Shown piece by piece: positions 45,973 to 57,570 of a stretch of DNA of 64,000 bases. The notes below the pieces were generated by a model. That model worked only from the letters and a program-made list of their open reading frames with translations. It searched no databases and was not told the DNA's origin. This DNA comes from Lysobacter enzymogenes (lineage in GTDB: Bacteria; Pseudomonadota; Gammaproteobacteria; Xanthomonadales; Xanthomonadaceae). The DNA is taken from the NCBI RefSeq assembly GCF_900106525.1, contig NZ_FNOG01000007.1:41534-105533 (forward strand), in the 5' to 3' direction. The position numbers were made by a program, and so were the translations under genes. Every line of letters begins with the position of its first letter. Position 1 is the first letter of the stretch.

Positions 45973-46593
45973 TTGCACACGACGACGCCTCCCGAGATAA
46001 CACCTGCGGTCCGACGACTTGTTGAGAAGGTGAGCAGGAGCGGTCAAGGCGTGTACTTGGCGGTGAAGCCTGATCCCGAGGCCATTGTCAACGAATGCTT
46101 TCCGAATGTTGAGGCGAAGATCGCGCGTGCCGGAGGGAGCATGCTATGCGGCTGGCAACTCTGGGAATGGCCGCATGTTCTGGTCGAAGCAGAGTTTCAC
46201 GCAGTCTGGCTATCTCCAGAGGGCGAGATGGTCGACATCACACCCAAACCGCACGGCGAAACTCGGATCCTCTTCGTGCCCGACGAGCGGCGCCGCTATG
46301 ACGGTATGGTGGTCGACAACGTGCGCATGCCGCTGCGCGACGACCAGGTGATTCGACACTTCATCCGTGTATCGGAAGCAATCGTGCGTGTGATGAACCG
46401 AGGGGAGCGGGCTTCCCAGTACGGCCATGTCAGCGTGCCTGCACATGAGATCGAGCCGCTGCTGCAGGTTCAGAACCTTCTAGGGCAATCCTTGGGATTG
46501 GGATTACGCGATCACGACCCCTGCCTGTGTCGCAGCGGAGGCAAGTACAAACGTTGCCATGGGCGTCGTCTCGAACTCATGTTTGGCCTCTGA
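45973..46593 (+). CDS. SEC-C motif protein of unknown function
   Basis: A 206-residue protein ending in a SEC-C zinc-binding motif (DPCLCRSGGKYKRCHG). This motif is also found at the end of SecA and on many small proteins, some in mobile or defence loci. The body (about 20-165) has a conserved-looking aromatic core (CGWQLWEWPHVLVEAEFHAVW; here CGWQLWEWP and EAEFHAVW), and DDQVIRHFIRVSEAI. The start is uncertain: the longest frame opens at a TTG (45973) with no ATG until residue 57, but the sequence looks coding from about residue 10. It is the first gene with island-type codon use. Confidence 0.65.
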   Translation: MHTTTPPEITPAVRRLVEKVSRSGQGVYLAVKPDPEAIVNECFPNVEAKIARAGGSMLCGWQLWEWPHVLVEAEFHAVWLSPEGEMVDITPKPHGETRILFVPDERRRYDGMVVDNVRMPLRDDQVIRHFIRVSEAIVRVMNRGERASQYGHVSVPAHEIEPLLQVQNLLGQSLGLGLRDHDPCLCRSGGKYKRCHGRRLELMFGL

Positions 46594-47297: not shown

Positions 47298-49259
47298 ATG
47301 GAGCTGATCAGGGCGCGGGTGCGCAATTTCCGCTCAGCCGAGGACACCGGCTGGTTCGATATCGGGCAGCTCACCTGCCTCGTCGGCAAGAATGAGGCGG
47401 GCAAGACTGCCGTGCTTTCTGCCCTCCATGGCATCAATCCAACTGCTGACTTTAGCTACGACAAAATCCGTGACTACCCGCGCCGGCACCTCGTTCGATA
47501 CAAGGAGAGGCATGGAGATGGCGAGGCTCGTGTCGCTGCTACCGTGTGGAAGCTCTCTGAGGCTGAAAAGCTTGTTGTAGAGAATGTGCTTGGCGAGGGG
47601 AGTTTGACCTCCGACACTATTGAGATCGAAAGCGAATACGAAAGCACAACCAACTACTGGACGATCGGAATTAATGAGCTAGTAGTGGCGAAGCACCTGC
47701 TCGCCAAGCACGGAGTGGTGGGGGAGGAGCTAACGAAATTTGAAGAAATTTCGTTCGACAAGTTCGTTACGGAAATCGATAGTACAGAAGGGGCGTCCGA
47801 GGCTCTACTGGCGGTAAAGGAGGAAATTGCTTCCTACCGAAAAGGTCGGACCACGCTTAAGGCAATCGACCTGCTGAGCGTGAAGGTGCCGAAGTTTTTT
47901 TATACATCTCACTATGACCGTATGTCAGGCGAGATCTCCATCGTAAAGCTTCAAGACGACAAGCAGCACGGCCGGCCGATGTCGCCAGGAGACCAGATTT
48001 TTCTGGACTTCTTGGAGTACGCCGGAACATCAATCGAGGAGTTGAAAGCGAGTACACGCTTGGAGGATCTGAAAGCCAAGTGTCAAGGGGCATCGAACGA
48101 TATTACCGACGAAATTTTCGAGTTCTGGAGTCAGAACGATGCGCTCGCGGTAAATATCGAGCTTGCTCAGGGATTGAGGGACGACCCACCGCCGTTCAAC
48201 TCGGGGACTGTAGCCAAGATTCGCATCAACAACTCGAACCACAAAGTGGATGTTCCGCTCTCCGAGCGGAGTGCGGGTTTCGTGTGGTTCTTCTCTTTCC
48301 TTGCTCAGTTCAAGCAAATGCGAAAGAAGGCGCCGAATGCCGTCATTCTTCTCGATGAGCCAGGCCTTACTTTGCATGGTAAGGCGCAGGCTGATCTGCT
48401 CCGCTACATCATCGAGAGACTTCTCCCTCAACACCAAGTTATCTATAGCACGCATTCGCCGTTCATGGTTCCGGTTGATCGGCTTGAGGACGTGCGTGTT
48501 GTTGAAGATGTTGTAGAACGAGATGAGCGCAACCGGCCTGTCGTCAAAGGAACTAAGGTTTCCGCCGATGTGCTCACGGTCGATAAGGACACTCTGTTTC
48601 CGCTGCAGGCCCATCTTGGGTACGAAGTAACGCAGTCACTTTTCGTTGGTGCGAATACGTTATTAGTTGAAGGTCCCTCGGACATTCTGTACCTGCAAGT
48701 GGCGTCTCATGCCCTGAAGGCCCGAAAGCGTGAAGGGCTGGATTCGCGTTGGACGATGTGCCCCTCCGGTGGCATTGATAAGGTGCAGTCGTTTGCATCT
48801 CTCTTTGCTGGGAAGGGGGTCAACATTGCCGCCCTATGCGACTACGGCAATGGCGACAAGAGCAAGGTGCAGCGCCTTCGTACTTCGCAAATCTTGAAGT
48901 CCGAGGGCATCCTCGTGGCGACCGATTTCACGGGAAAGGATGAAAGCGACATTGAGGACTTCTTCAGTCCCAGGCTATTTGCAGAAATCGTCAACGGCGC
49001 GTATGGCTTGAAGGGTAAGGGTGCGATCAAAGCGGATGCGTTTACGCAGGACGGCGCATTGGTGAGGCAAGTCAAGCAGACAGAGGCTCTGTTCAATTTG
49101 ATGGATGCCTCCGTTCCAGCGTTTGATCATTTCACGCCTGCATCTTGGCTGCTCAACAACCAAGACTTGCTGTCGAAAGACAGCCAGGAAGTGAACGAAT
49201 CGCTTGATCGTTTCGAGCGGGCTTTCAAGGCGGTCAACGCGCTGCTACCAGCGAAATAG
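47298..49259 (+). CDS. OLD-family ATPase/Toprim endonuclease
   Basis: A 653-residue protein joining an SMC/ABC-like ATPase to a Toprim nuclease. Walker A is GKNEAGKT at 30-37, Walker B is VILLDEPG near 347-354, and THSPF is the switch His region. The Toprim part has LLVEGPSDILYL (Glu near 458), DYGNGD near 515 and DESDIEDFF near 550. OLD proteins cut DNA and act in anti-phage defence (P2 Old; Gabija GajA; PARIS AriA). No UvrD-like partner (GajB) follows, so it looks like a class 1 stand-alone or part of a larger island. The start ATG follows GGGGGAGC. Codon use is much less GC-biased than in the core genes. Confidence 0.87.
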   Translation: MELIRARVRNFRSAEDTGWFDIGQLTCLVGKNEAGKTAVLSALHGINPTADFSYDKIRDYPRRHLVRYKERHGDGEARVAATVWKLSEAEKLVVENVLGEGSLTSDTIEIESEYESTTNYWTIGINELVVAKHLLAKHGVVGEELTKFEEISFDKFVTEIDSTEGASEALLAVKEEIASYRKGRTTLKAIDLLSVKVPKFFYTSHYDRMSGEISIVKLQDDKQHGRPMSPGDQIFLDFLEYAGTSIEELKASTRLEDLKAKCQGASNDITDEIFEFWSQNDALAVNIELAQGLRDDPPPFNSGTVAKIRINNSNHKVDVPLSERSAGFVWFFSFLAQFKQMRKKAPNAVILLDEPGLTLHGKAQADLLRYIIERLLPQHQVIYSTHSPFMVPVDRLEDVRVVEDVVERDERNRPVVKGTKVSADVLTVDKDTLFPLQAHLGYEVTQSLFVGANTLLVEGPSDILYLQVASHALKARKREGLDSRWTMCPSGGIDKVQSFASLFAGKGVNIAALCDYGNGDKSKVQRLRTSQILKSEGILVATDFTGKDESDIEDFFSPRLFAEIVNGAYGLKGKGAIKADAFTQDGALVRQVKQTEALFNLMDASVPAFDHFTPASWLLNNQDLLSKDSQEVNESLDRFERAFKAVNALLPAK

Positions 49260-49544
49260 CCCGCAGCCGGCTGCCGACTGTCCACGGCCGCACCCACGTC
49301 ATCGTAAGGGCGGAGTCGGTCTGAGCCGAGAGCGGCGGAACATGGGAAGTGCCAGCGTATGGGCCAAGCCGCTGCGAACGAAACCTCGATCACTTCATAA
49401 GCGACACAGATCGTCAGGGAAGTCGTTTCGCCAATTAGTTAGGCGGCGGCTCCGGGCAAGAGATAGCGATTACCACCGCGGCCGCCGACATCCGGCCGTG
49501 TTTGGTCTAAGAGCTTCGGGTGTCAATGGCCGATAGGTGCGGCA

Positions 49545-52500
49545 TTGAGCGATTTCTTTGTCGAGCTGGACCGGACTTTCCATCTGAGCGTCGCGAACGG
49601 CGCGAAGAGCGACGACATCGACCTGACCCAGCCGTTTGGTCAGCGCGGCCAGATGTCTTGGAGCGACCTGCTCGCCCGGCCGCGCGTTGTCATCCTGTCC
49701 GGCGGAGGCTCCGGCAAGACCGTCGAGATTCGCCATCGAGCTAAGCTGCTGCACGCCGAGGGCCAGTCAGCCTTCTTCCTGCGAATCGAGCATGTCTGCA
49801 ACGATTTTGCCGGCGCATTCGACAAGGCCGCCGGCAACCATGAGCAGTTCCTCGAGTGGGTCAAGTCCGGAGACGAAGGCTGGGTGTTCCTGGACTCGGT
49901 CGACGAGGCGCGGCTGAAGAGTCCGAAAGAGTTCGAGCAGGCGATCAGCTACATCGGCCGCATGCTCGAGCCAGTCCTGCAACGGGCACACATTCTCGTC
50001 ACCGGACGGGAAGCCGCTTGGCGGGCCCGTACGGATCGCGAGCTAATTCGTACGCATCTCCCCTACGAGTCGTCGACACCAGTAGTCACCTCTGATCCTG
50101 CCGAAGAACCACCGGCGCCGAAAGATAACGATTCCGAGCTGGAGGGGGCCAGCATCGACTGGCAAGTCGATGATCTCGATGCTGAGGATGACGACGGGCC
50201 CGAAGAGCCGACAAACAAGAAGAAGGATGAACCACCGGAAGCGGAGCCGAACGCAGTGCTGCTCGTCGGTTTCGATACCTTGAATGAGAAGCAGGTCGAG
50301 ACCTTCGCGCGTGCCAAGAAAGTCGCCGACGTAGCGAGCTTCCTGGAGGCCGTCACACGTAAGGAAGCGCAGTCTGAAACCGCCCGTCCGTTGGATCTGG
50401 AGGGGCTTGTCGACTACTGGAATGCGAACGGGCGCATCGGCAGCCAGTTCGAGCTCACTGAAGTCAGCATTGTTCGACGTCTATCCGAAGTCGATCCGGA
50501 TCGCGCAGAAGCCACCACGCTGAGCCGCGAACAGTTACGTCAAGCGGCACGCACGCTTGCGGCAGCAAACATGTTGATGCAGACACCGGAGATCCGACTA
50601 CTGGACGCCCCGGCCGAGCTGCATGGTGTTGAGCCGGGCGACCTGCTTAATTGGTCGGAAAAGGACATTCGCACGCTATTGCTGCGGCCGCTTTTCGTTG
50701 CAAGTCAGTTCGGCGCCGTTCGCATCTACGTGCAGAAGGCCCGAGAGTTTTTGACCGCCGAATGGTTGCACCGTCGTCTCGTCGACCACGCGTCCCGTAG
50801 CCGAATCGAAGCGCTCTTCTTCCAGGTTCAGTATGGTCGGGAAGTAGTGGTGCCGGCGATGCGTGGCGTTTTGCCGTGGTTGGCCTTGCTCGATCCCGAC
50901 GTGCTCGCGCGGGTGCGCCGCGTGGCGCCCGAGGTCATGTTCGAAGGCGGCGATCCGAGCCGTCTTCCGCTCGAGATGCGCCGCGAGTTGCTCAGCAAGG
51001 CGTGCGGCCAGTTGGCGGGCGCTTCGGGGCACGGTTCGCTGACTGACTTCCAGGCCGTACAGCGATTCGCGGCGCCCGATCTGGCCGATCACACTAAGGC
51101 GCTTCTGGCTATCCATCACAACGACGACGAAGTCGTCTATTTCTTAATGCGAATGGTCTGGCAGGGTGAGATTGCGGGAGCGCTCGACGAAGCTAAGCAG
51201 GTCGCGAGCCGCGCCAGCGATTTCAACGTGCGCCTCATCGCGTTACGTGCAGTCGCCGCGCTGGGGACGGATGCTGATCGCAAGACGGTTCGCGTGGCCC
51301 TGTTGGACGACGCCACGCCACCGGAGCGGGGGTGGGTTGCCGAGGTCGTCAAATCACTACCCCGCGATGCCGACGGCGTCGCTTGGCTGCTGCAAGCCTG
51401 CATTGGCGCCAAGCGCGAAGAGCGCTACAGCATCGATCCTCTCGCCGACGCCGTTGAGACCTACGTCGCTGAGCTGCCCCTGGCTCTGCTGCCACTTCTC
51501 GTCACGGGACTTGAGAGACTGCTGGAGCTGGCCGCGGACCACGACAACGACGATGGGGGCCATCGTCGCCGACCGAACGACTGGTTGATGAGCACAGCAA
51601 TCATAGTGCTGGATCGACTCGTCCAGGCGAAGGACACCGCCACGTTGCAGGCACCGGCGATGGCTTTGCTGCGTCGGATTCCAGTGGCCGTGCGGTTTGG
51701 CGACAACGAGGATCGTGAGGACAGCACGCGCTTGGCGGAACACGTGAGTGCGTGGGAGACGCTCAATCGCGCCCTGTTCTGGCAGGACGTGGAAGAAACG
51801 CGTGCGCATCGGCTGAAGAAGTCGGGCGAACCGCTGGTTGACATCTGGAGAGTCGGCATGTTCGGGCGCTACTGGCGCCTGACTGTCGACGATTTCGAGT
51901 ACATCCTCAAGGAAATCGGTACGCGACCACTTCTCGATGATCGCTTAGTCGCGTTATCGGCCGCACATAGCTTGTATCGCGAGAACGGTCGCCCGTCGAC
52001 CTGGCGTCAACGTTTGCGCCGACGTGCCAACGGAGTGCCTGAGCTCCAGGCGGCGCTCGCAGCACTGCTGGGACCGCTATCCGATCAGTTCAAGAAGTGG
52101 CGGCGGCAAGAGGCGCGAAGGAAGCAGCGCTCTGCGCGGGCCGCAGAAAAGCGTGAGGAAAATCGGGCGGGGTGGCGCAAGCATTTGATGGCGAATCTTG
52201 ATTCACTTCGCACACCTTTCCCGGGCGGCGGTGTCCGCAAAAATCAGCACTATCTTTCGACACGGATGCGTGAGTTCGACAAGAATTCGTCACGGTGGGC
52301 CGATGGCAGGTGGAGGTCGCTGATCCCAGAATTCGGCCACGACGTGGCCAGGGCATTCCGTGACGGTGCCGTCGCGTTCTGGCGAACAAACACGCCGGAG
52401 CTGCTTTCGACGGGCGCAGCTCCCAACAATACGCCGTTGACGACAGTATTCGGCTTGATTGGCTTGCTGTTCGACTCACGGGAGACGTCCAATTGGGCGG

Positions 52501-54167
52501 ACCAGCTGACGCACGAAGAGGCTGAGCTGGCCGCGCGATACGCAATGCGCGAACTCAACGGCTTCCCGCCGTGGTTGCCGCGACTGTTCGCCGCGCACCC
52601 CGAGGCGGTGTTGAAGGTCGTTCTAGGTGAGATTGACTACGAGCTGCGAACGGCGCTGGCCATCAACAGTCCCAGTCACGATGTGCTGAGCGACGTCAGC
52701 GGCGTTGGTAGCTGGATGTGGAACCGCCTTGCGCCGGAGCTCTTGAAACGCCTAAATGCCCCGCCGGCGAGCGCCGCGCACTTGCGTCAAGTTCTGACCA
52801 TCCTGTCTGGTTCCGAAGTGGAGGGAGCTGGCATCGCCGCGCTTGCGAGCACGCACGTGGGGAAGAGTGCTGATGAATTTGCTGCCGCGTGGTTTGCAGC
52901 CTGGATCGGCGTTGATCCCGATCATGCTCTCCCGGCACTAGCAACACACCTGGAGGCTCTTCGGGACAAGACGCGACAGACTGGTGTGGCAATGCATTGC
53001 CTGATCGCTCTCACCGGAGGACGCCGTGGGCGTCGCGTGGCTCGAGAGGGCTATCGCACGGTTCCGCATCTGACGGCCCTGTTCCTATTAATGCATCAAT
53101 ACATTGTCGAGAGCGAAGACATCGATCGAGCTGGCAAGGGCGTTTACAGCCCGACCTTGCGTGACGACGCCCAGGAGGCACGCAACCAGTTGCTCGCGCC
53201 ATTGAGGGACACGCCCGGACAGGAGGCATACTTCGCGCTGCTGCGAATCGCTGCGGAGCATCCTTCCAAGCATGGACGGGCTTGGGTTACGAGGCTTGCA
53301 TACGCGCGAGCGGTCACCGATGCGGACCGGCCTGGTTGGGGAAGCAGCCAGGTGCGAGAGTTCCAAGAGAATCTAGAGCGTACGCCACGTAATCACCAGG
53401 AATTGCATGATCTGGCGATCGATCGCCTGCTCGATTTCAAGCACTCTCTTGAGCACGGTGAGACCAGTATCGCGGGAGTACTACTGACGCCAGAGGAAAC
53501 TGAGGTCAGGAACGTCGTTGCCGACTGGTGCAGGGCCCGCGGTCTGAATCGTTATGTGATCGCACAGGAGGAAGAGTTCGCGGACAAGAAGCGCACTGAC
53601 ATCCGCTTCCTGAGCATGGCCTTCGACAACCCGGTGCCGGCGGAACTGAAGCTGGCTAACCAGTGGTCCGGGCCAGAGTTAGCCGAACGCCTCGAAAATC
53701 AGCTGTGCAATGACTATCTCCGGGATCAGCGGTCCAGTCGAGGCATCTTTCTTCTGATGCATCAGGGAGGGCGCAAATACTGGGGCCTTCCCGACGGAAG
53801 TCGGGTCACCTCGGTTGAGGAACTCACGGCAGGCCTGCAAGCGCACTGGGCGAAGGTAGCCAAGGATTTCCCGCATGTGCATGCCGTGCACGTTATCGGC
53901 ATCGACCTGACCATGCGTGCCGAGCCCAAAGGTAGGGGCGCGGCTAAGTCCACTACCAAGAAGATAGCCAACACGGCTACGAGGAAACCGACAAGCGATG
54001 TCGCCAAGAAGGTGGCTAAGAAGGCCGCCAAGAACGTCACCAAGAAGGCCGCCAAGAAGGTTACTAAGAGCGTCACCAAAAAGGCCCCTGGAAAGACAAG
54101 ACCCAAGTCGGTAGCCAAGTCAGCCGCGAAGAAGGTTGACGTGAGTAGGGCGAAGAGTCGGAAGTAA
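49545..54167 (+). CDS. Giant NACHT-like NTPase with C-terminal PD-(D/E)XK-like segment and H1-like tail
   Basis: A 1540-residue protein. Residues 47-160 form a STAND/NACHT-type NTPase core: Walker A SGGGSGKT (52-59), Walker B GWVFLDSVDEA (112-122) and a sensor-like HILVTGREAAWR (149-160). An acidic Pro-rich linker (about 175-235) follows, then roughly 1000 helical residues resembling HEAT-type repeats. A nuclease-like stretch has Asp1352 (RTDIRF), Glu1367-x-Lys1369 (AELKLANQW), then NQLCNDYL and RGIFLLMHQGG, which fits the PD-(D/E)XK core order. The last 75 residues are Lys/Ala/Thr repeats (KKVAKKAAK) like histone H1. The start is a TTG at 49545 with weak AGGTG upstream; the 285-bp gap before it shows no gene. 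It probably works with the next gene in defence; inference. Confidence 0.75.
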   Translation: MSDFFVELDRTFHLSVANGAKSDDIDLTQPFGQRGQMSWSDLLARPRVVILSGGGSGKTVEIRHRAKLLHAEGQSAFFLRIEHVCNDFAGAFDKAAGNHEQFLEWVKSGDEGWVFLDSVDEARLKSPKEFEQAISYIGRMLEPVLQRAHILVTGREAAWRARTDRELIRTHLPYESSTPVVTSDPAEEPPAPKDNDSELEGASIDWQVDDLDAEDDDGPEEPTNKKKDEPPEAEPNAVLLVGFDTLNEKQVETFARAKKVADVASFLEAVTRKEAQSETARPLDLEGLVDYWNANGRIGSQFELTEVSIVRRLSEVDPDRAEATTLSREQLRQAARTLAAANMLMQTPEIRLLDAPAELHGVEPGDLLNWSEKDIRTLLLRPLFVASQFGAVRIYVQKAREFLTAEWLHRRLVDHASRSRIEALFFQVQYGREVVVPAMRGVLPWLALLDPDVLARVRRVAPEVMFEGGDPSRLPLEMRRELLSKACGQLAGASGHGSLTDFQAVQRFAAPDLADHTKALLAIHHNDDEVVYFLMRMVWQGEIAGALDEAKQVASRASDFNVRLIALRAVAALGTDADRKTVRVALLDDATPPERGWVAEVVKSLPRDADGVAWLLQACIGAKREERYSIDPLADAVETYVAELPLALLPLLVTGLERLLELAADHDNDDGGHRRRPNDWLMSTAIIVLDRLVQAKDTATLQAPAMALLRRIPVAVRFGDNEDREDSTRLAEHVSAWETLNRALFWQDVEETRAHRLKKSGEPLVDIWRVGMFGRYWRLTVDDFEYILKEIGTRPLLDDRLVALSAAHSLYRENGRPSTWRQRLRRRANGVPELQAALAALLGPLSDQFKKWRRQEARRKQRSARAAEKREENRAGWRKHLMANLDSLRTPFPGGGVRKNQHYLSTRMREFDKNSSRWADGRWRSLIPEFGHDVARAFRDGAVAFWRTNTPELLSTGAAPNNTPLTTVFGLIGLLFDSRETSNWADQLTHEEAELAARYAMRELNGFPPWLPRLFAAHPEAVLKVVLGEIDYELRTALAINSPSHDVLSDVSGVGSWMWNRLAPELLKRLNAPPASAAHLRQVLTILSGSEVEGAGIAALASTHVGKSADEFAAAWFAAWIGVDPDHALPALATHLEALRDKTRQTGVAMHCLIALTGGRRGRRVAREGYRTVPHLTALFLLMHQYIVESEDIDRAGKGVYSPTLRDDAQEARNQLLAPLRDTPGQEAYFALLRIAAEHPSKHGRAWVTRLAYARAVTDADRPGWGSSQVREFQENLERTPRNHQELHDLAIDRLLDFKHSLEHGETSIAGVLLTPEETEVRNVVADWCRARGLNRYVIAQEEEFADKKRTDIRFLSMAFDNPVPAELKLANQWSGPELAERLENQLCNDYLRDQRSSRGIFLLMHQGGRKYWGLPDGSRVTSVEELTAGLQAHWAKVAKDFPHVHAVHVIGIDLTMRAEPKGRGAAKSTTKKIANTATRKPTSDVAKKVAKKAAKNVTKKAAKKVTKSVTKKAPGKTRPKSVAKSAAKKVDVSRAKSRK

Positions 54168-54291
54168 CGCGCCCCAAAGTGATTAGTCTGCAAGGGCTTT
54201 CAGAGTAGGGTTAGCACGACTGTGAAATCTGCGGCGACTCGGTCGCGAGCGATAGCGCCTTGATCCACCGATCAGTGGAAGCAATCTACCC

Positions 54292-57200
54292 ATGGACAAA
54301 GCAAGCAAGAATCGAAGCTACCGAGAGTTCATGCGAGCGCGGCGTCCGGAGCTGTACTCCGATACGTTGCATACCGAGGTTGGTGAATTAGACCGGCGCC
54401 AGTTCGAGTTTCATCTGCACTCGCTCACAAGCCGAAAGGAGGAGACTGCGTTCGAGAATTTCGCGCGGGTTCTGGCTGAAAAGGAGATTTGTCCGAATCT
54501 GATACCGCAGACCGGGCCGACTGGGGGCGGTGACAGCAAGGTTGATACGGAGACATATCCAGTAGCTCCATCGATTGCAACGCTTTGGTTCGAGGGTGAC
54601 CCAGTGTCCGCCGGCGAGCGCTGGGGTTTTGCCGTAAGTGCCAAGGCCGAATGGAAGCCGAAGATTCGCTCAGACGTCGCCAAGATTTTGGCAACCGGCC
54701 GCCCCTACACTCTTGTTTACTTTGTCTCGAACCAGTCCATCAAGGACAAGGACCGAGCCGAGATGGAAGACGCCCTCACCAAGGAACATGGTGTGCAGGT
54801 GCGTATCCTGGACCGGAGCTGGATCGTTGAGAAGGTTGTCCGCCACCAGCGTTGGAATATCGTCGCTGAGACGCTCCAGTTCGAGCTCGCGTCCAAAGTG
54901 ATCTCTAGTCCTGGCCCCCTTGACGCCGGAAGGCTGCGTGAGCTGGATGCTCTCGACAAGAAGATCGAGGCGGCAGCTATGTCTGGTGTCACCTTGGAAC
55001 TGGTCGAGGAGAGCTTGCAGTCGGCACTGCTCGCACGCGGTCTCGAGCGGCCACGACACGAGGTCGATGGCAGGTTCGAGCGCGCAGAGCGCCTTGCTCG
55101 TCGCACCAATCGTTGGCAACTCCAGCGCATCTGGTACCAGAAGGCTTGGACGGCCCTGTGGTGGTTCGATGACATGGAAGAGGCGGACCGAATCTATGAC
55201 CTATTGGCAGCTGAAGTACTGGCCTCCGATTGGGTTTGGGATACTGACGGCCTTGTCAATCTCTGGTTGGCCTTCCAAGCGGGTAAGCCTTCCAGAGAAG
55301 CACGTACCAGCGCTCTTCGTACTTCACTTCTGCGCCATGCCGCCGACGAGTCAAAGGAAACCAGCTCACTTTGGGCTCGGACGCAACTTCTACAGATGGA
55401 CTTGGTCGCGGGCATGCATTCAAAAAGCGATTTGCGGCCTGCCATTACTGCATTGAGCCATGTTCTGGGCGAAGTGCGCGGCAAAGTCGAATTCCCAGTC
55501 GAGCCATTGGTTCGGATGGTGCAAGAACTGGCAAATGTCATCGGTGAGTTGCCCGGTTATGACGAGCTGCTAGATACCGTCATCGAAATCGAACGCGAGA
55601 GAAATGGCGACCGAGTCGCTGGAGAGCTTCAGCTGCAGCGCGGTCTTAAAAGACTCGAGCGCAAGAAGGCGTATGACGCGATTGACGACCTGGCCCGCGC
55701 GCAGCTGCTCCTTGCCCAGGAGGACTGCCGTGATGAGTTCATTGCCGCGCTCTGCGGGACGGGCCTCGCGTACGAGTCGGCGGGTCTTCTCTACGCGGCA
55801 AGGGCGAATCTAGTGACCGCGTTGGACCGATGCTTATATTCATGGTTCAAGGAAAAATCCGTCGATCGTCGAGCGTTGCCGCTGTTGAAGAAGCTGGCTT
55901 GGCTGGATCTTCAGCTCGGTCGCGTGCCTTATGTACTCGGCTGGGTGAAGTGGTTCGCGCCAATCCAGGTCGCATTGAGTCTGGACGAGGATGACACCAA
56001 GGCGCTGTACGAGGAACTGCAGGCTATCGACAGAGTTCTTGGAATCTTGGTGTTGCGCACTGCGCACGATGATTGGCCTCGCCTCGCTCGGCTTCCGGAC
56101 CTGCTGTCAACATTGGGGTTGGAGATGTCACGTGCCGCGGCCCTCTTCATGCTGGGGTACGAGGACACGGTGCGAGCAGAGTATGGGACTGCGAATGACG
56201 ACTTGGACCAGTTTTCCAGCGAATGGCTTGCCGCTCCAGCTTCGCAAGATCTTCCCAAGCACCCAGCTTGGCACTTCGGCACAGCCACCATGACAACGGC
56301 GATCTTGGGTTGCCAAATTGAAGTCATCGTCCGTGGTGGTGTCGCGTCGGCACTGCTGGGTGAGAGCATTGTCGCGTTTCTCGAGGCGTTCTATTCCACC
56401 GCCGTTCGCGCCACAAGCATGTTTTCACCCCGAGAGCGACTGGTTATCGAGGTTCGGCAGTCGGAGGCCGCGAAGCCGCCCTTTGTTCATCGTCATGTTG
56501 AGGATGACTGTGGCGAGACGATGCTTATCGTCGCGCACCCGATTTCTGGCGCATCGGAACTGGTCGGCGAGGGTTTCGAAAAAGCGATGATTGAGCTGTT
56601 CGCGCGCGTGACGTACGAGCTGCAGCTCAGGGTTAAGCACAAGGACTTTGAGGAGATGTTTGCTAAGCATCGTGCTCAAGACCGTGCGTACCACGTAGCG
56701 CGATCCATCATTTCCGTCACGAACATTCTTGGGGCGTCGCCGCCGGGGCGCGCAGAAGACTGGGTGCAGGACAATACTCTGGCCGAGTATCCGCTCGTTC
56801 GCGCAAAAGCCTGGGTGCCGGATTCGAGTGTCGTCGCGCTTGCTGGCGCTAATGCCGAAAAAGAATCCGACTATGCTAGGGAGCCGTTGTCAGAGAAGCT
56901 CTTCGGCGTGGATGCGGTGTTGCATCGGGACATGAGGGTCATGTCGCCCATCATCCTTCCGCTCTGGGACAAAGCCAAATGGAAGGGTACTGGCGTGCTG
57001 CTGCCAGAGGTTCCTGGCGAGGTGGCACCGCCGATGATGGCCTTGGCATTTGAGAACTTTGACGCAGGCCAAAAGATCTTTCGTGGTTGGCGCAAGAAGG
57101 TGGGTGCGGAGAACCGGGACGGATGGCTTAGCGTTACTGTCATCACCGGTATTCAGCGCGACAGTCCATTGAACTACCGGGTGGCAATAGGCATTGGCGA

Positions 57201-57570
57201 GTCGTACCTGAAGGCAATGTCCGCTGACAATCGCATGTTCGCCATGGTCTACCGAATGCACGATATGACGCCATCGTCTGGTCGAAACCTCGAGGTCTTG
57301 CAAGATCACTTCAGGCGCCGAGGATTTGTTTTCCTGCTGCCGGTTGCTTTCAGCGCTACCTCGCCACGAATCGAGACGACTGAAGAGAGCTTTGAGTTGG
57401 GCATCAGGCTCTCACACCTGGTGTTCATCCCGGCATGGCAGGTTGGAGAGACGTCACCGCTTATTGGGGCCATGCGCGGAATCACTGACCCGATTCTTCC
57501 TCCAGGAGTGACCGACGCGCCATTCTTGCAGGCGATTGAACGCTTCAAGGAAAGCAAAAAGGCTCACTAG
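54292..57570 (+). CDS. Large protein with N-terminal PD-(D/E)XK-like nuclease domain and TPR-like repeats
   Basis: A 1092-residue protein. Residues 35-180 resemble a restriction-endonuclease-like fold: TGPTGGGDSKVDTETYPV (75-91, acidic Asp81/Asp85/Glu87), WGFAVSAKAEWKPKIRSDVAK (within 111-131, Lys118), then YFVSNQ and ILDRSWIVEKV. The lysine motif has Ser rather than Asp/Glu two residues before it, so the exact catalytic set is uncertain. Residues about 240-640 are helical with TPR-like units (for example FIAALCGTGLAYESAGLLYA). The C-terminal third is mixed and unassigned. The ATG at 54292 is 124 bp after the NTPase stop on the same strand. Together they look like a two-gene effector/sensor operon. 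Confidence 0.7.
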   Translation: MDKASKNRSYREFMRARRPELYSDTLHTEVGELDRRQFEFHLHSLTSRKEETAFENFARVLAEKEICPNLIPQTGPTGGGDSKVDTETYPVAPSIATLWFEGDPVSAGERWGFAVSAKAEWKPKIRSDVAKILATGRPYTLVYFVSNQSIKDKDRAEMEDALTKEHGVQVRILDRSWIVEKVVRHQRWNIVAETLQFELASKVISSPGPLDAGRLRELDALDKKIEAAAMSGVTLELVEESLQSALLARGLERPRHEVDGRFERAERLARRTNRWQLQRIWYQKAWTALWWFDDMEEADRIYDLLAAEVLASDWVWDTDGLVNLWLAFQAGKPSREARTSALRTSLLRHAADESKETSSLWARTQLLQMDLVAGMHSKSDLRPAITALSHVLGEVRGKVEFPVEPLVRMVQELANVIGELPGYDELLDTVIEIERERNGDRVAGELQLQRGLKRLERKKAYDAIDDLARAQLLLAQEDCRDEFIAALCGTGLAYESAGLLYAARANLVTALDRCLYSWFKEKSVDRRALPLLKKLAWLDLQLGRVPYVLGWVKWFAPIQVALSLDEDDTKALYEELQAIDRVLGILVLRTAHDDWPRLARLPDLLSTLGLEMSRAAALFMLGYEDTVRAEYGTANDDLDQFSSEWLAAPASQDLPKHPAWHFGTATMTTAILGCQIEVIVRGGVASALLGESIVAFLEAFYSTAVRATSMFSPRERLVIEVRQSEAAKPPFVHRHVEDDCGETMLIVAHPISGASELVGEGFEKAMIELFARVTYELQLRVKHKDFEEMFAKHRAQDRAYHVARSIISVTNILGASPPGRAEDWVQDNTLAEYPLVRAKAWVPDSSVVALAGANAEKESDYAREPLSEKLFGVDAVLHRDMRVMSPIILPLWDKAKWKGTGVLLPEVPGEVAPPMMALAFENFDAGQKIFRGWRKKVGAENRDGWLSVTVITGIQRDSPLNYRVAIGIGESYLKAMSADNRMFAMVYRMHDMTPSSGRNLEVLQDHFRRRGFVFLLPVAFSATSPRIETTEESFELGIRLSHLVFIPAWQVGETSPLIGAMRGITDPILPPGVTDAPFLQAIERFKESKKAH

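Follow-up and report, generated by a model that had tools for sequence, protein, structure and literature searches.

P0003, a protein of 1092 residues encoded at 54292..57570 on the plus strand of a 64,000-nucleotide stretch of Lysobacter enzymogenes DNA (the window), appears from sequence comparison to belong to an undescribed family. Structure models suggest a family architecture in which a nuclease-like domain is followed by a TPR-like superhelix and, at the C-terminus, by a module that also occurs in some SEFIR proteins. No conserved partner of P0003 was found. With moderate confidence we regard the locus as an island of independent single-gene defence genes, in which P0003 would be a lone module-controlled nuclease defence.

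The island and the two genes upstream of P0003

The first-pass annotation of the region reported three plus-strand genes in a lower-GC island. The frames, of 653, 1540 and 1092 codons, were confirmed by an ORF check and the composition by their G+C contents of 0.534 (P0001), 0.611 (P0002) and 0.575 (P0003), a range of 0.53-0.61 as compared to 0.70 for the genome and 0.702 for bases 1-42000 of the window. The P0002 frame starts with TTG. Downstream of the trio lies the convergent P0004 (57594..58736, minus strand), which encodes a 380-aa protein without an assigned family; it gave no match in Pfam, PADLOC or NCBIfam and is probably a gene separate from the plus-strand trio. The ORF flanking the island was not a conserved gene among the 20 genomes compared.

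The domain reading of the 653-aa P0001 (47298..49259, plus strand) as an OLD-type ATPase-Toprim protein is supported, with the Toprim part as a candidate. The ABC-type ATPase part is present, with AAA_15 matching at 77.4 bits (Pfam cut-off 32.1), and OLD-like_TOPRIM scores 17.6 bits, which is under its cut-off of 23.2. The likeness to the OLD family (P2 Old, GajA, AriA) is reflected in PADLOC scores of 80 bits for AriA, the best match, 72.5 bits for Old, spanning residues 334-516, and 48.6 bits for GajA. Relatives occur in 88 plasmid records. Whereas Gabija, PARIS and Septu have an adjacent GajB, AriB or PtuB, the scanned downstream proteins P0002-P0004 gave no PADLOC match of any kind; for the two small ORFs upstream the scan covered Pfam alone. 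P0001 thus seems to stand alone, without a recognised adjoining partner.

P0002 (49545..54167, plus strand, 1540 aa) matches NCBIfam NF058534, HyoA, at 1476.4 bits (curated cut-off 1200) over model positions 1-1430 of 1430. The family is named NACHT domain-containing antiphage protein, and by this profile match P0002 is assigned to an already named antiphage family. This membership had been overlooked earlier, and the proposal that the NTPase is part of an undescribed system is not supported. The description of P0002 as an NTPase with a C-terminal nuclease-like segment is supported: a P-loop-like SGGGSGKT at residues 52-59 (49698..49721, plus strand), beginning with S versus G in the textbook Walker A, and a PD-(D/E)XK-type motif running from D1352 to E1367-L-K1369 (53598..53651, plus strand) are both conserved. 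In the P0002 alignment S52, G55, G57, K58 and T59 are identical in 6/6 relatives, as are L116, D117, S118, D120 and E121 of an LDSxDE stretch (residues 116-121) and D1352, E1367, L1368 and K1369. Pfam called no NACHT domain in P0002, sequence searches gave no convincing solved structural relative, and the literature matches listed contained nothing relevant on HyoA or EruA. Beyond residue 1460 P0002 has a lysine/alanine-rich tail, which is absent from two of the five intact aligned relatives (L029 and L031).

Architecture of the P0003 family

The family contains 71 full-length collinear members of 1060-1167 aa, P0003 and 70 further proteins, from several phyla; 10 of the 80 loci were left out of the alignment with ORFs under 1000 aa. 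Scans of 40 of the 71 members, with the other 31 left out, gave no convincing match in Pfam, NCBIfam or PADLOC. A P-loop was found in 0/71 members by either a strict or a loose pattern, and Pfam gave no NTPase match in P0003. Searches for solved relatives by sequence with P0003, A3 and A7 gave none that was convincing; a match of A3 at E 8e-4, over the TPR-like part, is a designed helical protein. A viral fold library returned mainly TPR-type matches. The earlier suggestion of an undescribed element at this locus survives for the 1092-aa protein alone and not for an NTPase-nuclease pair, the NTPase being HyoA.

The structure model of P0003 (pLDDT 87.3) contains both the N-terminal nuclease-like domain and the TPR-like repeats that the first-pass annotation had recognised; a third, C-terminal region (about 655-1092) had escaped it. 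The predicted restriction-endonuclease-like domain covers residues 1-206 (54292..54909, plus strand). Restriction enzymes head its Foldseek list, none at E 0.001, with EcoT38I (PDB 7edb) as the best match (E 2.5e-3, prob 0.99, TMq 0.41, 13% identity) and AspBHI at prob 0.90. Neither P0003 model gave a match at E 0.001 and the lists mix in unrelated folds. Compared to EcoT38I, P0003 carries about 890 extra residues. The domain may also resemble the nuclease fold of Avs4 (PDB 8dgf; prob 1.00, TMq 0.48, E 1.1e-2). In Avs4 nuclease and TPR parts occur within one protein, and P0003 would likewise combine them in a single chain, but it lacks a P-loop (by pattern) and the STAND NTPase region and has the C-terminal module instead.

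Invariant residues in the family include D81, K83, D85, S116, K124 and D128. D81, kept in 71/71 members, is located in a loop that falls in a low-confidence stretch of the model (residues 74-82). The acid position of the (D/E)XK motif is occupied by S116 in 71/71 members, and K118 is kept in 53/71 and replaced by M in 11. Catalysis by P0003 is unsure because the site is non-canonical, with serine at the acid position and a variable K118. The same features are what a dead nuclease fold would display, and the N-terminal domain could accordingly do no more than bind DNA or protein while the module, which is C-terminal in two unrelated architectures, acts as the effector. We consider such a role distinctly unlikely, since conservation is highest in the N-terminal domain (mean column identity 59% (A7) versus 39% in the module alignment (A8)) and the invariant D81, K83, D85, K124 and D128 look more like a chemical site than a surface.

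Residues 207-654 (54910..56253, plus strand) are predicted to form a TPR-like alpha superhelix, as indicated by helix pairs in the model and by TPR proteins among the Foldseek matches. It is followed in the model by a linking alpha/beta region without an assigned role (residues 655-877; 56254..56922, plus strand), of which residues 853-871 have a pLDDT under 50. The C-terminal module spans residues 878-1075 (56923..57516, plus strand) and is defined by profile matches. A module profile built without SEFIR proteins matches three of them, at 162, 127 and 63.5 bits, showing that the module also occurs behind SEFIR domains. In the two of these three that were scanned a SEFIR (TIR-like) domain lies over the Pfam cut-off, and all three SEFIR-module proteins match the PADLOC bSEFIR model PDLC03957 as whole proteins (190-208 bits). 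P0003 itself has no SEFIR domain and gave no match in Pfam or PADLOC. The module is not part of the bSEFIR model, which matched 0/10 module fragments at E 10. Among 14 SEFIR-like ORFs found by this model two carry the module, both previously known. With a SEFIR-module protein as query no relative was found among viral contigs, and the SEFIR literature matches listed include no paper on the common module. Profile comparison showed no similarity that would derive the C-terminal part from the nuclease or from a duplication within the protein, and both origins were rejected.

Neighbours and genomic setting

As this locus illustrates, that genes adjoin within a defence island says little about whether they form one system. 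HyoA and P0003 lie on the same strand, 124 bp apart, and have a similarly low G+C. In this lineage they might form a functional pair, with the NTPase as sensor and the nuclease-TPR protein as an additional effector. A HyoA-like gene was present near a P0003 homologue in only one of 80 loci, at a distance of 5.4 kb (sequence of 5 kb or more on each side was available for only 52 of these loci), and no P0003 relative was found at the six HyoA loci (flanks 5-8 kb). In samples of 247 and 398 genomes, only the window's own genome contained both genes, and 0/14 plasmid accessions with P0003 occurred among the 30 listed of 60 HyoA plasmids. Because of the single locus and the lack of genome overlap a joint P0003-HyoA system is unsupported, and a pair seems very improbable given also the nuclease-type motif that HyoA itself carries near its C-terminus. 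The first-pass annotation had proposed the genes at 49545 and 54292 as an undescribed NTPase and nuclease-TPR pair, to be abandoned if they rarely occurred together, and outside the window's genome they rarely do.

The three-gene locus was likewise rejected on rare co-occurrence: HyoA and P0003 rarely co-occur elsewhere, and the OLD protein, also dismissed as a partner, has no relative in loci L021-L137 of the other two families (phmmer, E 1e-3). P0004 was discarded as a P0003 partner, with a single relative among the loci compared, adjoining the P0003 homologue in L074. Among adjacent ORFs at no more than 400 bp from P0003 homologues (51 upstream on the same strand, 63 downstream) the largest related group had 3 members. 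When whole flanks were considered, the largest other related group comprised 9 loci, an integrase included.

Relatives of P0003 occur in 14 plasmid records, 12 IMG/VR contigs and 1 phage record. In two of four plasmid regions examined parA/parB-type genes adjoin the relative. This distribution would suit a plasmid or prophage cargo nuclease that is not directed against phages, such as an addiction, plasmid-exclusion or plasmid-maintenance factor. We consider this unlikely: no antitoxin-like neighbour is kept beside P0003 homologues, and the module is common to SEFIR proteins, which the available part of PMC12322248 counts as phage defence.

PADLOC families matched numbered 118 among 122 P0003 neighbours versus 120 among 122 control proteins; before counting, 10 near-duplicate loci had been dropped, followed by 2 of 124 neighbours and 2 of 124 controls. 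In the 25 matches listed, component names numbered 15 for P0003 neighbours, from unrelated systems, versus 3 for controls, where the set is skewed towards a single type I restriction locus. Enrichment of P0003 near defence genes is therefore suggestive only, and on plasmids several relatives are surrounded by genes for backbone or metabolic functions rather than for defence. The defence character ascribed earlier to the locus is supported as an interpretation.

Proposed function of P0003

We propose that the locus is a small island of acquired DNA in which the OLD-type protein, the HyoA NTPase-nuclease and P0003 would each operate independently, P0003 most likely acting alone. In the resting state the C-terminal module and the TPR superhelix would hold the N-terminal nuclease quiet. 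A cue from phage infection would be answered by the module, as the putative sensor, together with the superhelix, and the released nuclease would cut DNA and stop phage growth, probably at the cost of the cell. TPR parts and PD-(D/E)XK nucleases, as predicted for P0003, are also described among the validated E. coli systems of DefensePredictor in the available part of PMC13092281, a comparison by description only.

More specifically, P0003 may represent an unnamed, phylum-crossing and NTPase-free single-protein defence whose module also occurs behind SEFIR/TIR-type NADase domains, a reading to which we give a nearly even chance. One sensing module would then serve two ways of stopping an infected cell. 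Since the module stands behind two different effectors, the question whether both respond to the same phage cue can be asked directly. If the proposal is correct, a widespread protein that pipelines annotate as hypothetical would be a defence based on a nuclease, and nuclease and TIR/SEFIR immunity would be connected through a module that belongs to no named family.

The locus and its OLD-type and HyoA genes

The first-pass annotation had placed three plus-strand genes at 47298-57570 of the window in a lower-GC setting, and both points were confirmed: the genes have G+C contents of 0.53-0.61 versus 0.70 over the window's first 42 kb. The genome assembly comprises 6.26 Mb in 23 contigs. The first gene encodes an OLD-type protein (P0001, 653 aa, 47298-49259), with Pfam matches to AAA_15 above the cut-off and to OLD-like_TOPRIM below it. 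Its top PADLOC matches were AriA (80 bits) and Old (72.5 bits), with GajA (48.6 bits) and PtuA (46.4 bits) weaker. None of the three proteins encoded downstream matched the PADLOC partner models; on the upstream side are a 206-aa ORF with a SEC-C motif (Pfam; 45973-46593), at the border of the lower-G+C stretch, and a 121-aa ORF that has no Pfam match. P0001 looks like an OLD-type gene that stands alone.

The second gene encodes the 1540-aa NTPase (P0002, 49545-54167). It matched NCBIfam NF058534 (antiphage HyoA) over its whole length with 1476 bits at a cut-off of 1200, while the EruA match was far under cut-off. The P-loop, LDSxDE and C-terminal D...ELK residues were conserved in all six aligned relatives. 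HyoA scored above cut-off in 7 genomes of a 247-genome family sample (10 with any match) and in 8 of a 398-genome phylum sample (37 with any match); relatives occurred in 60 plasmid records, 30 of them covering at least 80% of the query. Because of this score, the motifs and the distribution, P0002 is by sequence a member of a named family. HyoA and the OLD protein both belong to known kinds. A literature search for a paper describing HyoA found nothing relevant among the matches listed.

The HyoA tail (53922-54164) is a lysine/alanine-rich, histone-H1-like segment of about 80 residues; basic tails were also present in relatives at L026, L027 and L030, and absent at L029 and L031. On many Burkholderia glumae plasmids (NC_012720.2 and others) the HyoA relative is matched piecewise, and the annotation places a transposase beneath the match. 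A helicase-like protein of 1134-1172 aa and an ORF of 257-259 aa adjoin HyoA in L029 (1914-5432) and P0003 homologues in L022 (11748-15152) and L058; they are a recurring two-gene cassette of these islands.

Distribution and neighbours of the P0003 family

The NTPase had been proposed to form a possibly undescribed pair with the 1092-aa nuclease-TPR-module protein (P0003, 54292-57570). This was unsupported in both samples, since only the window's genome appeared in both hit lists. P0003 matches were found in 6 of the 247 family-sample genomes (the window's genome, three full-length or nearly so at 32-35% identity and two partial) and in 4 of the 398 phylum-sample genomes (two full-length, the window's own counted, and two with the C-terminal part only). 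When 84,980 species genomes were scanned, 85 relatives emerged, and 80 of their loci were retained; because the scan used peptide patterns taken from the nuclease and helical regions, module-only proteins could not turn up. A HyoA-like ORF lay near the P0003 homologue in one of these 80 loci (Pseudoxanthomonas japonensis, 5.4 kb downstream); both flanks reached 5 kb or more in 52 loci, and one or other flank did in 72. P0003 relatives were found in none of six HyoA loci (5-8 kb flanks). By these samples and loci, P0003 is not HyoA's partner.

An ORF of at least 1000 aa was present in 70 of the 80 loci, giving with P0003 a set of 71 collinear proteins of 1060-1167 aa that share 25-76% identity with P0003. 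The record titles name Pseudomonadota, Bacillota, Verrucomicrobia, a TM7 bacterium, a Runella, a Kiritimatiellae MAG and Desulfuromonas. Relatives occurred in 14 plasmid records (12 spanning at least 80% of the query), all annotated as hypothetical protein, 13 as single features and one as two; a Nostoc plasmid encodes one with 38% identity. Viral contigs gave 12 relatives, 10 aligned over most of their length. One lies between replication-type and terminase-type genes (L147) and another is flanked by replication-type and RusA-type genes (L150), as read from the ORFs by ourselves rather than by profile search. Such genome places are where prophages carry cargo.

Among 40 scanned members, none matched NCBIfam at E 0.01; Pfam gave two matches, each in a single member (E 0.0044 and 0.0058), PADLOC gave a single match (E 0.009), and all three were to unrelated families. 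By these profiles, P0003 has no name in any of the three libraries.

No fixed partner of P0003 homologues emerged from the ORFs lying up to 400 bp away (51 same-strand ORFs upstream, 63 downstream), where the largest related group had three members; over whole flanks the largest other group covered nine loci and included an integrase in L032. In three alphaproteobacterial loci (L087, L092, L093), ORFs of 483 aa and 1687-1709 aa lie immediately upstream of near-identical P0003 homologues, the whole probably being a single transferred block. In the window, the P0003 gene faces a convergent gene for a 380-aa protein without family match (P0004, 57594-58736, minus strand) across a 23-bp gap, followed by an RHS-repeat protein gene (Pfam). 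In Pseudomonas segetis (L074), the gene 29 bp upstream of the P0003 homologue encodes a P0004 relative (phmmer E 3.2e-29). By eye, the P0004 start, LTLDTNI, is reminiscent of PIN domains.

The 122 nearest neighbours of 200-900 aa were searched with PADLOC at E 1e-10. The best 25 of 118 families matched carried 15 component names, including Lamassu, MADS, type I, II and III restriction, HerA, Hachiman, AbiEii, dGTPase and Argonaute-associated names. The control comprised 122 length-matched ORFs drawn from 20 arbitrarily chosen stretches in six related genomes; here the best 25 of 120 families carried three component names, mostly from one type I restriction locus. Because the family totals were alike (118 versus 120), the names come from the best 25 and the control was not matched for taxon, the neighbourhood is suggestive of defence islands and does not amount to an enrichment.

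Architecture of P0003 and its C-terminal module

The full-length P0003 model was of high confidence, with a mean pLDDT of 87.3 and a pTM of 0.77. Residues 1-206, modelled separately (pLDDT 80.5; residues 74-82 below 50), best matched the solved structures of EcoT38I (E 2.5e-3), Avs4 (E 1.1e-2, probability 1.00) and AspBHI, with FokI, BamHI and Cap4 ranked lower and unrelated folds mixed among the matches. D81, K83, D85, S116, K124 and D128 were invariant in all 71 family members, E55 was kept in 69 and K118 in 53. The family has a serine where PD-(D/E)XK enzymes place the acid ahead of the lysine, and the predicted nuclease site appears to be either rearranged or dead. No member contained a P-loop by a strict pattern or by a loose one that does detect HyoA's; GDGKT, found in seven members precisely at the D81-K83 loop, is taken as a nuclease-type loop. 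Residues 207-654 were modelled as helix pairs whose top structural matches were TPR proteins such as LGN. The layout is reminiscent of Avs4, minus its NTPase. A distant 1009-aa relative (L024, 8275-11304) keeps the nuclease-like and helical parts and matches the C-terminal region in its first part alone; therefore the module (residues 878-1075) can be absent.

The two phylum-sample genomes with the C-terminal part alone encode proteins of 369 and 362 aa, in which the module comes after a SEFIR domain at the N-terminus (55.1 and 65.5 bits against a cut-off of 23). A Lactiplantibacillus plantarum plasmid encodes a third such protein beside an AbiEii-type gene; it is annotated as TIR domain-containing, and its module matches more weakly, split into two pieces (63.5 bits in total). 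With a profile built from the P0003 family alone, the three scored 162, 127 and 63.5 bits, and BLAST aligned the first to members of that family with 31-38% identity over about 180-200 residues among the matches listed. Since the three SEFIR modules formed one clade (support 0.97) in a tree of 74 modules, we infer an old exchange, not a recent fusion.

As whole proteins the three match the PADLOC bSEFIR model (190-208 bits). None of ten module-only fragments did so, and of 14 SEFIR-like ORFs found with this model in 30 loci, two carried the module, both already known. These profile results count against a simple link from the module to the tested bSEFIR proteins. They indicate that SEFIR proteins have several different C-termini, the P0003 module being one among them.

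The DefensePredictor text mentions PD-(D/E)XK and TPR proteins (PMC13092281), and P0003 may be among its systems or predictions. Nuclease activity, sensing and protection are putative functions of P0003. The module and helical superhelix would hold an effector and release it on a phage cue, the effector being a putative nuclease in P0003 and presumably of NADase type in the SEFIR proteins.
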